Shown: positions 14,635 through 18,159 of the stretch, piece by piece
Layout: every line of letters begins with the position of its first letter
Numbering within the stretch: position 1 is the first letter of the stretch
NCBI GenBank assembly: GCA_011042225.1
Contig: DQXT01000079.1
Span: 1 to 49,115 of the forward strand
Direction: 5' to 3'
Origin: Deltaproteobacteria bacterium
GTDB taxonomy: Bacteria; Desulfobacterota; Dissulfuribacteria; Dissulfuribacterales; UBA3076
DNA: 49,115 nucleotides
Program-made: the position numbers and the translations under genes
The notes under the pieces: generated by a model
What the model was told of the DNA's origin: nothing
The model's input: the letters and a program-made list of their open reading frames with translations, nothing else
Database searches by the model: none

Positions 14635-15540
14635 TTAAAGGCCACCATGACCCAAATTATGAGTAAAGCCGCTTCCGTCACCTTCTTTACCTGCATTGAG
14701 CAACCCTATAATCCGTTCCAGATCCTGAATAGAACGATAACGTATTTCCAGCCTGCCGCCCCTTTTAGTTTGTACTATTTTTATCTTATAACCAAGCCTG
14801 CGAGTCAGATCTTCGCAAAGATTTCTGATGTCCGGGTCTTCCCTTTGACCTCTTGCACCCAGACTTTTTCCTTTAGCTAATCTACGGGCCAAGTCCTCTG
14901 CCTGCCGTACAGAAAGATCTCTTTTTATTATAAGGTCTCTTAACTCCTTCTGGCCGGCAGGATCTTCCAACATCAAGAGGGCCCTGGCCTGGCCCATGCT
15001 GAGACGGCCATAAAGCAGGTCCGCTTTAGCATAGTCTGGTAATTGGAGAAGCCTCAAAAAATTGGCCACGGTAGGCCTTTCCCTTCCAACCCTTGAGGCC
15101 ACTTGTGACTGTGTAAGCCCAAGTTCATTAATAAGTCTGCTATAGGCCATGGCCTCTTCCAGGGGATTCAAATCCTCTCTCTGGATATTCTCTATCAGTG
15201 CTAACTCAAGCAGCTCATCGGGGCTCAAGTCTTTTATTACAACAGGGACTGCCTTAAGCCCGGCCTTTTGGGCTGCCTTCCATCGCCTTTCGCCAACTAT
15301 CAACTCATAAACCCCGTCAACCTCCCAAACCACCAAGGGCTGAAGGATACCCTTCTCCTTGATGGATCTGGCCAAGCCCTCAAGGGAATCCTGATCCATA
15401 TGCTTGCGTGGCTGATCAGGATTCGGCCGTATCTTTTCTATGGGACAAAGAAAAAACCCTGGACTTCCTAAATCATATATGTCTTCTGTGGAAAGAAGGG
15501 CGCCAAGACCTCTACCTAATCCTCCCTTGAGCTTCATCAT
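14635..15540 (-). CDS. parB: Chromosome-partitioning protein ParB
   Basis: A CTP-dependent, parS-binding centromere protein of 301 residues. Landmarks are the N-terminal ParA-activating region KGGLGRGLGALL, the PDQPRK segment, the CTP/ParB-box region LIVGERRWKAAQKAGL, the second box ALIENIQREDLNPLEEA, the HTH near LTQSQVASRVGRERPTVANFLRL, and a C-terminal dimerisation domain. It overlaps parA by four bases (ATGA). I found no consensus parS site in the window, so the sites must lie elsewhere or be divergent. Confidence 0.96.
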   Translation of the reverse strand: MMKLKGGLGRGLGALLSTEDIYDLGSPGFFLCPIEKIRPNPDQPRKHMDQDSLEGLARSIKEKGILQPLVVWEVDGVYELIVGERRWKAAQKAGLKAVPVVIKDLSPDELLELALIENIQREDLNPLEEAMAYSRLINELGLTQSQVASRVGRERPTVANFLRLLQLPDYAKADLLYGRLSMGQARALLMLEDPAGQKELRDLIIKRDLSVRQAEDLARRLAKGKSLGARGQREDPDIRNLCEDLTRRLGYKIKIVQTKRGGRLEIRYRSIQDLERIIGLLNAGKEGDGSGFTHNLGHGGL

Positions 15541-16325
15541 GACCTCCTCTGGCAGTACAGGAACTCACGGGCCAGAGCCAAGTAACTCTCTGCCCCTTTG
15601 GATCTCGGTTCATATGAAAATATCGGCTTCCCGTGACTCGGACTCTCGCCCAGTCTTACATTCCTGGGAATGGTCGTCTTATAAACAAGGTCCCCGAAAT
15701 GTGTCCGCACCTCACGCGCGACATGAAATGCGAGACGAATGCGATAATCGTACATGGTAAGCAATAGTCCTTCAATGTGGAGCCTGGGATTGAAATTGTG
15801 TTTCACAAGCCTTATAATCTTAACCAGCTGACTCAGACCCTCAAGTGCATAATATTCACATTGCATCGGAATAATTACAGAACTGGAAGCACTCAGGGCA
15901 TTTATGGTTATCAGCCCCAGAGAAGGGGGACAGTCTAATATTATATAATCAAAGGAATTCAAAGGAGCTAAAAGTTCCTTCAGTATCCCCTCTCTGTTTT
16001 TACGTCCTGCCAGATCCACCTCTATTCCTACTAGATCCATATTTGAAGGAATAATAGAAAGATTGGCAATTGACGTAGGCTGAATCACTTCGGCTATACC
16101 GGCCAAGCCAAGGATGGCGTGATAAAGGTGCCTAGCTAGCCCCTTTTGGGCAAATCCAAGGCCGCTGGAAGCATTTCCCTGGGCATCACAATCTACGAGC
16201 AAGATAGACCTGTTGAGAATGGAAAGGCCTGCTGCCAGATTAACTGCGGTTGTGGTTTTGCCCACGCCACCCTTTTGGTTGGCTATACATATTATCTTGG
16301 TCTTTTGTAACGATGCTTTTGTCAT
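15537..16325 (-). CDS. parA: Chromosome-partitioning ATPase ParA (Soj)
   Basis: A MinD/ParA-type ATPase of 262 residues that drives origin segregation with ParB. It shows the deviant Walker A motif KGGVGKTTTAVNLAAGL near the N-terminus, the A' motif LLVDCDAQGNASSGLG and Walker B DYIILDCPPSLGLITINAL. No N-terminal HTH extension is present, as in chromosomal Soj-type rather than plasmid ParA. It is first of the parAB pair; a short palindrome TTTGTACAAA lies just upstream (16333-16342) and could be coincidental. Confidence 0.97.
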   Translation of the reverse strand: MTKASLQKTKIICIANQKGGVGKTTTAVNLAAGLSILNRSILLVDCDAQGNASSGLGFAQKGLARHLYHAILGLAGIAEVIQPTSIANLSIIPSNMDLVGIEVDLAGRKNREGILKELLAPLNSFDYIILDCPPSLGLITINALSASSSVIIPMQCEYYALEGLSQLVKIIRLVKHNFNPRLHIEGLLLTMYDYRIRLAFHVAREVRTHFGDLVYKTTIPRNVRLGESPSHGKPIFSYEPRSKGAESYLALAREFLYCQRRS

Positions 16326-16489
16326 TATTATGTTTGTACAAAACCAACGGCATCCTTGAACGACGAATCAAATTTTGAATTCATAGTCTCAACATCTGCA
16401 TTCACAGCGATAATGCACGCCTTATGGAAAAAATGTAAACTGTTGAATGAAAGACACCAAACTAACTTTAAAATACTATAATCGATTTC

Positions 16490-16506
16490 AGGAGAATTAA
16501 GCCATA
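16490..16506 (+). promoter_or_regulatory. Shine-Dalgarno and apparent AUA start of hflX
   Basis: AGGAG at 16490-16494 is nine bases upstream of an ATA codon at 16504, an ideal spacing. From this ATA the frame reads AKIFGNIHSLTHSERRG, which agrees with the conserved beginning of delta-proteobacterial HflX. No ATG, GTG or TTG lies in frame between the upstream TAA (16498) and this point. Confidence 0.5.
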
Positions 16507-18159
16507 GCAAAAATTTTTGGAAACATCCATAGCTTGACACATTCAGAGCGCCGGGGCCTTGAGCGTCTCTTCCGCAGAAAAATACCCCCCAATAAGTTAT
16601 TAACCCCTGAATTAGCAAGGACCTTAACCGAGATTTCGGGCTCTATGGCCAGGCAAGTAGGGGTCATAGTAAACCGAAAAGGTATAATACGCCACGTCAT
16701 ACTGGGTAATCATCACAATATAGTAATACCAGATATAAGCTTCTACCGCAGGGGGCACGGCCGTTTAAAGGGTCTGCGGTGTATTCATACCCATTTTAAT
16801 AAAAACGAAGGAATAAACACTGAGGACCTCTCTGATCTTGCACTTCTGAGACTGGATGCAATGATCACTGTCGAGGTCAGAGAAAATCTGCCGGGCCAAG
16901 TGTGCTTTGCCCACCTTCTGCCCCCTAACCACGAAAACAGGCATTGGGAAATACTTAACTTCAGACATCCCAGCGCAATCGACTTACATTTCTTGGAATT
17001 CATTCAAGAACTTGAGGAGGAAATAAAGAGGTCACAGGATAGATTGTCTCCCAGGAAGAGAGAGGAACGTGCGATTCTGGTACATGCAAGTCAACGTCCT
17101 CGCTTTGAAGCGGAGATATCTCTTGCGGAACTTGCGGAACTTGCCCGCTCATCTGATATAGAAGTGCTGGAAAAAATCTGGCAACGTGTTTCTCGCTATA
17201 ATCCCGCGCACCTGCTCGGCAAAGGAAAGCTGCGGGAGATCCTGATAAAGGGCCTTTATCTGGGAGCCACCATGGTGATCTTTGACCAGGACCTCGGGGC
17301 CATACAGCTAAGCAATATTGCCAAAATGGTAGATCTCAAAGTCATAGACCGCACCCAATTAATCCTTGATATCTTTGCAAGAAGGGCCCAAAGCAAAGAG
17401 GGGAAAATCCAAGTGGAACTGGCTCAACTCCGCTACCTGCTCCCCAGGCTCATGGGTCGAGGTACTGCCATGTCAAGACTTATGGGAGGTATTGGAGGAA
17501 GAGGTCCTGGTGAGACCAAACTGGAAGAGGATCGCAGGAGGGTAAAGCAGCGTATCAGTTCTCTTGAGCGTGAATTAAAGAGCCTTTCCAGGGGAAGAAG
17601 AGAGAGAAGAAAGCGCAGGACAGCAAAGGGGACACTGCCTGTAATTTCAATTATAGGCTACACAAGCGCAGGCAAATCCACACTTCTTAATCGACTCACA
17701 GGCAGCAAAGTCCTGGCTGAAGATCGACTCTTTGCAACACTCGATCCAATAACACGACGGCTTGTCCTGCCGGATACGAGAGATGTGTTGCTGGCAGATA
17801 CCGTCGGCTTTATTCGACATATGCCAAAAGATCTTAGAGTAGCATTTAAGGCCACCATGGAAGAGCTGGAAGATGCCCATCTTTTCTTGCATGTGATTGA
17901 CGCAACCAGCCCATATAGAAAGGGAGAGATAATAGCAGTCGAACAGATTCTGGAAGAAATGGACCTGTTAGCAACTCCAAGGATACTGGTCTACAATAAA
18001 ATAGACCTGTTGAAAAGAGATACTCCTGCTGCCGGTCCCGAAACGGTTTATATATCCGCAGTAACCAAAGAGGGTATTGACGAGCTTATTAAGATGTTGA
18101 CCAAACGATTACCTCAAAAGGCACAAGAAGAATTTACCTCTACCCCAGATGTGGCCTAA
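16504..18159 (+). CDS. hflX: GTPase HflX, long N-terminal form
   Basis: A ribosome-associated GTPase that splits or rescues stalled 70S ribosomes. It carries an N-terminal extension of about 180 residues (block VGVIVNRKG, then LKGLRCIHTHFNKNEG) seen in delta-proteobacterial and other long HflX proteins. The HflX domain contains GKGKLREI, LRYLLPRLMGRG and GRGPGETKLEEDRRR; the G domain has GYTSAGKSTL, DTVGFIRHMP and YNKIDLL. Homology extends upstream of the first conventional start (TTG 16534) to an ATA at 16504 with a well-spaced Shine-Dalgarno, so I begin there; 16534 is the conservative alternative. It is divergent from parAB. Confidence 0.95.
   Translation: MAKIFGNIHSLTHSERRGLERLFRRKIPPNKLLTPELARTLTEISGSMARQVGVIVNRKGIIRHVILGNHHNIVIPDISFYRRGHGRLKGLRCIHTHFNKNEGINTEDLSDLALLRLDAMITVEVRENLPGQVCFAHLLPPNHENRHWEILNFRHPSAIDLHFLEFIQELEEEIKRSQDRLSPRKREERAILVHASQRPRFEAEISLAELAELARSSDIEVLEKIWQRVSRYNPAHLLGKGKLREILIKGLYLGATMVIFDQDLGAIQLSNIAKMVDLKVIDRTQLILDIFARRAQSKEGKIQVELAQLRYLLPRLMGRGTAMSRLMGGIGGRGPGETKLEEDRRRVKQRISSLERELKSLSRGRRERRKRRTAKGTLPVISIIGYTSAGKSTLLNRLTGSKVLAEDRLFATLDPITRRLVLPDTRDVLLADTVGFIRHMPKDLRVAFKATMEELEDAHLFLHVIDATSPYRKGEIIAVEQILEEMDLLATPRILVYNKIDLLKRDTPAAGPETVYISAVTKEGIDELIKMLTKRLPQKAQEEFTSTPDVA

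Follow-up and report, generated by a model that had tools for sequence, protein, structure and literature searches.

The hflX gene of the window (the whole 49,115-nucleotide stretch of DNA analysed here) raises the question of which codon begins its translation, and whether that codon could have a part in controlling the protein. The window corresponds to contig C4 in a draft genome of 2.05 Mb and 153 contigs. Its hflX coding sequence occupies positions 16504..18159 on the plus strand (551 codons and a stop, with an ATA start), and a ParA-like gene, named by eye, lies divergently at 15537-16325. The encoded protein matches TIGR03156 and the Pfam families GTP-bdg_N, GTP-bdg_M and MMR_HSR1; it reaches 422.5 bits against TIGR03156, the general HflX model (cut-off 216.75), and 317.9 bits against NF008280, the E. 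coli-type HflX model, which has a cut-off of 441. The GTPase domain spans 17641..18018 on the same strand (residues about 380-505, from the TIGR03156 and Pfam matches), and the HflX proteins of aligned relatives are 53-89% identical to that of the window. Judged from its sequence, the protein is an HflX GTPase of a long type, for which ribosome splitting is predicted. What it shares with E. coli-type HflX is the HflX GTPase; the E. coli type has no counterpart of the N-terminal 185 residues, and it starts at ATG. In the window this N-terminal domain is encoded by 16504..17058 (plus strand, residues about 1-185, with an AlphaFold2 model of mean pLDDT 87), and Pfam matched nothing in the protein upstream of residue 206.

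The fold of the N-terminal domain is a subject in itself. A PDB sequence-profile search with it gave nothing significant (best E 0.079), and Foldseek found no match to the model at E 0.001. The model resembles JAB1/MPN (JAMM) proteins, with Pyrococcus furiosus JAMM1 as the best structural match (Z 7.5 over 112 residues, rmsd 3.6), and a Z below 8 may reflect a common arrangement only. An H-T-H motif is widely kept among 236 sequences (H95 in 94%, H97 in 88%), as are D108 (98%) and D111 (97%). If the modelled likeness is true, a metal site in a GTPase that splits ribosomes would be a striking feature.

We use AUH for a start at AUA, AUU or AUC, and conventional for ATG, GTG or TTG. The ATA at 16504..16506 (plus strand) is preceded, nine nucleotides upstream, by the Shine-Dalgarno (SD) sequence AGGAG at 16490..16494 (plus strand), an SD of five bases only, which stands at the same place in all eight genomes of the genus. 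Between them, two codons 5' of the ATA, is an in-frame TAA (16498..16500, plus strand) that is likewise present in all eight genomes, so that no in-frame start further upstream is possible and such a start is ruled out. The codons that follow the ATA (GCA AAA ATT TTT GGA AAC) are in frame with HflX. The first conventional codon is a TTG at 16534..16536 on the plus strand, ten codons downstream. Being first is what speaks for translation from this TTG, with the residues before it never made; yet it has no SD, is CTG in seven of the eight genus genomes (in those seven the first conventional codon comes 16-40 codons in), and its use would delete Gly6, a residue upstream of it that all 236 relatives share. 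Residues 3-6, also upstream, form a strand in the structural model. The TTG was rejected as the start, and translation from it is very improbable.

The locus combines the absence of a usable conventional start with residues conserved from the ATA onward and a properly spaced SD, as expected of a non-standard start, and hflX translation almost certainly begins at AUA 16504. The initial annotation, which dealt with this one gene, had proposed an AUA start nine bases behind AGGAG and a first conventional codon ten codons further on; both proposals agree with what is found here. It had also taken ATA to be the sole codon able to serve, and this needs qualifying: the ATA stands, and the ATT at 16513 is an AUH codon too, but one that varies among relatives (ATT, GTT, ATC, ATA and others). 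An ATG in close relatives, it had warned, would point to a sequencing error. There is none in the eight genus genomes; across the order, four of 29 genes have ATG. A draft assembly of 153 contigs could in principle carry an ATG misread as ATA, but seven further genus members have the same ATA, as do other families of the order, so that error is refuted by independent genomes and can be given hardly any weight.

ATA in eight of eight genus genomes is weak proof taken alone, because 11 of 31 internal columns that always encode isoleucine are likewise all ATA (seven sequences compared). The order is more informative. Its 29 non-redundant genes comprise 24 with ATA (one of which, L031, is doubtful, as its ATA has no SD by the start rule given below), one with ATC and four with ATG. 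Among the 23 sequences with an AUH codon exactly at the first alignment column, 22 have ATA, compared with 81 of 230 codons over ten internal always-isoleucine columns, none of which is invariant. Codon identity between pairs of sequences reaches 0.91 at the start and 0.31-0.64 at the internal isoleucine columns; the third base is therefore under constraint in the start codon, while at the internal columns it drifts.

Conservation well beyond the order was surveyed with an N-terminal profile model in genomes of the window's own phylum, in those of the Nitrospirae and Acidobacteria phyla, and in the loci of a named genome scan; phylum names are taken from record titles. The samples from the own phylum, Nitrospirae and Acidobacteria consisted of the best 30 loci each of 187, 141 and 43 genomes with a match, supplemented by 43 loci, one per family, from the own-phylum matches listed and by 17 low-ranked loci of the Nitrospirae phylum. 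Of 264 loci scanned, six had no N-terminal match and 19 were removed as duplicates (same first 200 bases); a masked locus (L071) and one cut by a contig end (L098) were dropped, which left 237 genes, 236 of them in the tree. Starts were called as the codon with the best SD of at least four bases within codons -4..+3, failing that the nearest conventional codon, and failing that the nearest AUH codon, a rule that may err for single genes. An AUH start was called in 182 of the 237 genes (66 ATC, 60 ATA and 56 ATT, five of these calls being without an SD by the rule), a conventional one in 54 (43 ATG, 2 GTG and 9 TTG), and one gene was left uncalled; the sampling was biased towards high scorers against a model that was itself built mostly from AUH genes. 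AUH starts outnumber conventional ones in the order (25 to 4), in the named scan (39 to 31), in the best-scoring own-phylum genes (21 to 2), in the Nitrospirae phylum (25 to 1, and 16 to 1 in its low-ranked set) and in the Acidobacteria phylum (28 to 1), and less extremely in the one-per-family own-phylum set (28 to 14, with one uncalled). The UASB270 phylum, whose loci apart from L079 are outside the 237, has ATT in all four genomes examined. We consider it highly probable that a conserved AUH start is a trait of the long-HflX family across several phyla. Many of the conventional-start genes belong to genomes titled Desulfobacterales, Desulfobacteraceae or similar, and long HflX was unmatched in 60 of 247 own-phylum, 7 of 148 Nitrospirae and 106 of 149 Acidobacteria genomes. 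Since 54 of 237 hflX genes are conventional and many genomes are without long HflX, the AUH device is dispensable.

That the AUH codons are real starts is indicated by the distribution of SD sequences, counted as at least four bases at 4-13 nt. An SD accompanies 162 of 166 genes that have an AUH codon and no conventional codon nearby, and 9 of 53 genes with a conventional codon whose first column is not AUH, the other 44 having none; 18 genes that fit neither class were left out of this comparison. As a background, 1558 of 6683 internal ATH codons in the genome of the window are preceded by an SD. In 134 of 180 AUH hflX genes the stretch from the in-frame stop to the AUH codon is free of ATG, GTG and TTG, and the next conventional codon downstream is a median of 36 codons away. 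Directly after the start, the Gly6 codon has base-by-base identities of 1.0, 1.0 and 0.37 over 163 genes, and this third-base drift is of the coding type. The conventional-start genes (e.g., L049, L056, L060 and L072) are mostly without an SD, the reverse of the AUH genes, and this absence is possibly another means of keeping HflX low.

The age of the trait was assessed on a FastTree phylogeny of the N-terminal ~190 residues of 236 genes, built with the first six codons excluded and without support tests, on which change counts are parsimony minima. Changes between AUH and conventional starts number at least 19, against a mean of 48.7 and a minimum of 41 in 300 shuffles, and AUH is the root state by parsimony under three rootings, which suggests that the AUH start is ancestral. 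Interchanges among ATA, ATT and ATC number at least 53 in the 182 AUH genes (shuffled mean 85.9), and changes between AUH and ATG at least 14. AUG appears to be selected against, because all four codons would give fMet via the initiator tRNA and one transition suffices to turn ATA into ATG. On this phylogenetic evidence the AUH start would have arisen early in the long-HflX family and been maintained by selection.

A HAD-like ORF, named by eye, provides a contrast (minus strand; L348 from 706 in G000:C18, and L387-L394). Its start is ATA in G005 and, preceded by AGGAGG, in the window's genome, but ATG in six other genus genomes, a recent ATG/ATA difference that may have the look of an unselected change; AUA starts can therefore appear in this genus with no connection to IF3 biology. 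Other AUH starts were sought in 1,138,955 bases (about 56% of the genome), where 1011 ORFs gave 20 crude matches, the hflX ORF being among the few that looked credible by eye; the scan is incomplete, because it missed the infC of this genome, whose SD reads GGGGGTG. A mogA-like ORF, named by eye (minus strand; L272 from 879 in G000:C5, and L395-L402), was rejected as a conserved AUH start, the same codon being ATA in four, CTA in three and TTA in one of the eight genus genomes. In the window's genome this ORF has no conventional start ahead of its conserved GVLTVSDS segment, and six codons in it has GTA where seven relatives have GTG (six) or ATG (one). An acetyl-CoA-synthetase-like ORF, also named by eye (plus strand; L279 14848 in G000:C9), has ATC behind GGAGG and, four codons later, an ATG without an SD.

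The leader of hflX appears to be very short. A probable -10 box, TATAAT, lies at 16477..16482 on the plus strand, 21 nt upstream of the ATA, and is conserved within the genus (as TATAAC in L006). An exact TATAAT occurs at -50..-14 in 34 of 178 AUH hflX genes, the members of the genus being part of the 34, whereas two control segments gave 2 of 178 and 0 of 177; for conventional-start genes the count is 2 of 54 versus 1 and 1 in controls. No good -35 element was found upstream of the TATAAT, a consensus promoter scan listed another site and did not have 16477-16482 among its sites, and Rfam gave no match at the gathering score in 16200-16700. The leader of the window's hflX probably measures about 15 nt and begins near the SD, with the transcription start inferred from the putative box. 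If the TATAAT is a -10 box, the shortness of the leader makes the start codon the obvious control point. Such a leader also bears on another route to the ATA, namely re-initiation after, or frameshifting from, an upstream mini-ORF whose stop overlaps it. A TAG does overlap the ATA (ATAG) in seven of the eight genus genomes and in many other relatives, but the overlap is not general, with other lineages reading ATTCC, ATCCC or ATAAA, a start for the mini-ORF is not evident in all, and the predicted leader is too short to hold one. This route was rejected as very improbable.

If the start is an AUA used directly, the gene most like hflX in this respect is infC, which encodes IF3. PMC5472188 gives ATT as the infC start of E. 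coli and ATC as that of Streptomyces; in S. aureus, infC and ccpN both start at AUA (PMC13009471). The infC starts were called by a wider rule (which admitted every codon after the in-frame stop, up to about 50 codons upstream) at loci from 30 of 57 relatives' genomes with a match, from 28 of 30 genomes behind the named-scan loci and from 25 of 26 genomes with conventional hflX. AUH starts were found in 82 of 83 loci: in 30 of 30 relatives (28 ATC, 2 ATA), in 27 of 28 named-scan genomes (20 ATA, 5 ATC and 2 ATT, with one GTG) and in 25 of 25 genomes with conventional hflX (23 ATA, 2 ATC). This result recovers known biology and thereby supports the method, and the AUH infC genes beside conventional hflX genes imply that in those 25 genomes a conventional start is a matter of hflX and not of infC. 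IF3 is encoded in the same genome as the hflX of the window, as an IF3-controlled gene would need, and by inspection the start of that infC is ATC. The two genes share the AUH class, an SD, a product that acts on ribosome subunits, retention over great distances and the genomes in which they occur; they are unlike in that the infC product feeds back on itself, whereas hflX would be a target.

IF3 is described as repressing non-standard starts, with infC autocontrolled through its start codon (PMC5472188). It is also described as binding free 30S subunits and keeping subunits apart, while stalled 70S ribosomes are split by HflX and heat shock raises the E. coli hflX transcript (PMC9067457). In a mechanism built on these activities, initiator tRNA would begin hflX at AUA 16504, held there by the AGGAG on a very short leader, and IF3 would destabilise 30S complexes with AUA, AUU or AUC in the P site. 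HflX would be made slowly when IF3 is ample and faster when IF3 is short relative to free 30S; once split 30S subunits exceed IF3, AUH initiation would rise and both IF3 and HflX would be made. Because IF3 holds subunits apart once they are split and HflX splits stalled 70S ribosomes, a single sensor, the stringency of initiation, would raise both activities. The initial annotation had suggested that such a start could bring regulation of the infC kind, dependent on IF3, and this accords with the retention of the AUH class over several phyla, with the strong SD and with AUH infC genes in the same genomes. By analogy with infC, IF3 control as the reason for the AUH start of hflX stands at about an even chance or slightly above.

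The main rival accepts the AUH start as real and sees in it a fixed brake that keeps HflX scarce, with no useful response to the level of IF3. Non-standard starts in S. aureus are reported to give ~10% of the output of AUG reporters in poor medium (PMC13009471), and the scarcity of SDs at conventional-start hflX genes (9 of 53) would also keep translation low, an arrangement that fits a brake or IF3 control, because an AUH start and a missing SD may both keep HflX low. A brake, however, can be obtained in many ways, while here AUH with an SD has been kept through at least 53 third-base changes in the very arrangement of infC; and IF3 opposes non-standard starts generally, according to PMC5472188, so that some sensitivity to IF3 is expected. 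A fixed brake is a possible explanation, to which we give about one chance in three. The explanation that we consider best, with confidence somewhat past the midpoint, is an AUA start that belongs to an old, selected AUH trait and serves hflX as an IF3 device like that of infC.

Comparable cases are few, and according to PMC5472188 few bacterial genes with AUA, AUU or AUC starts are characterised. Streptomyces sigR resembles hflX as a stress-response gene with a strong SD and a non-standard start that is misannotated in genomes, but its start is GTC and not AUH, its product is a sigma factor, and its repression by IF3 is reported from experiment (PMC5472188). The ccpN (AUA) and cvfC1 (AUU) genes of S. 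aureus share conserved AUA/AUU starts and strong SDs with hflX, but are described for Staphylococci and have other functions (PMC13009471). E. coli pcnB has an AUU start that limits expression (Binns and Masters 2002, cited in PMC1780047), although its protein is unrelated to HflX. An AUU start was also proposed in 2007 for a translational GTPase, in two isolated cases (PMC1780047), a text in which the term HflX is absent. Among the open-access papers listed, as covered by titles, term counts and abstract openings, no report of a non-standard hflX start was found, and no paper in that library combined HflX, IF3 and AUU.

Gene callers that allow only ATG, GTG and TTG would shorten such HflX proteins, the next conventional codon being a median of 36 codons in, or misplace their start. 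The initial annotation treated the AUA start as a feature of one gene; it now appears as an old trait of a family. HflX thus joins the genes with a non-standard start, probably one discriminated by IF3, and is unusual in the breadth of its conservation and in the protein that would be controlled. It is an evenly balanced proposition that in at least four phyla infC and hflX form a small, ancient regulon under translational control by IF3, exerted through the start codon alone and often on a leader of little beyond the SD. That hflX, like infC, belongs to the ribosome cycle and retains an AUH start across phyla suggests IF3 as a candidate regulator of ribosome splitting.
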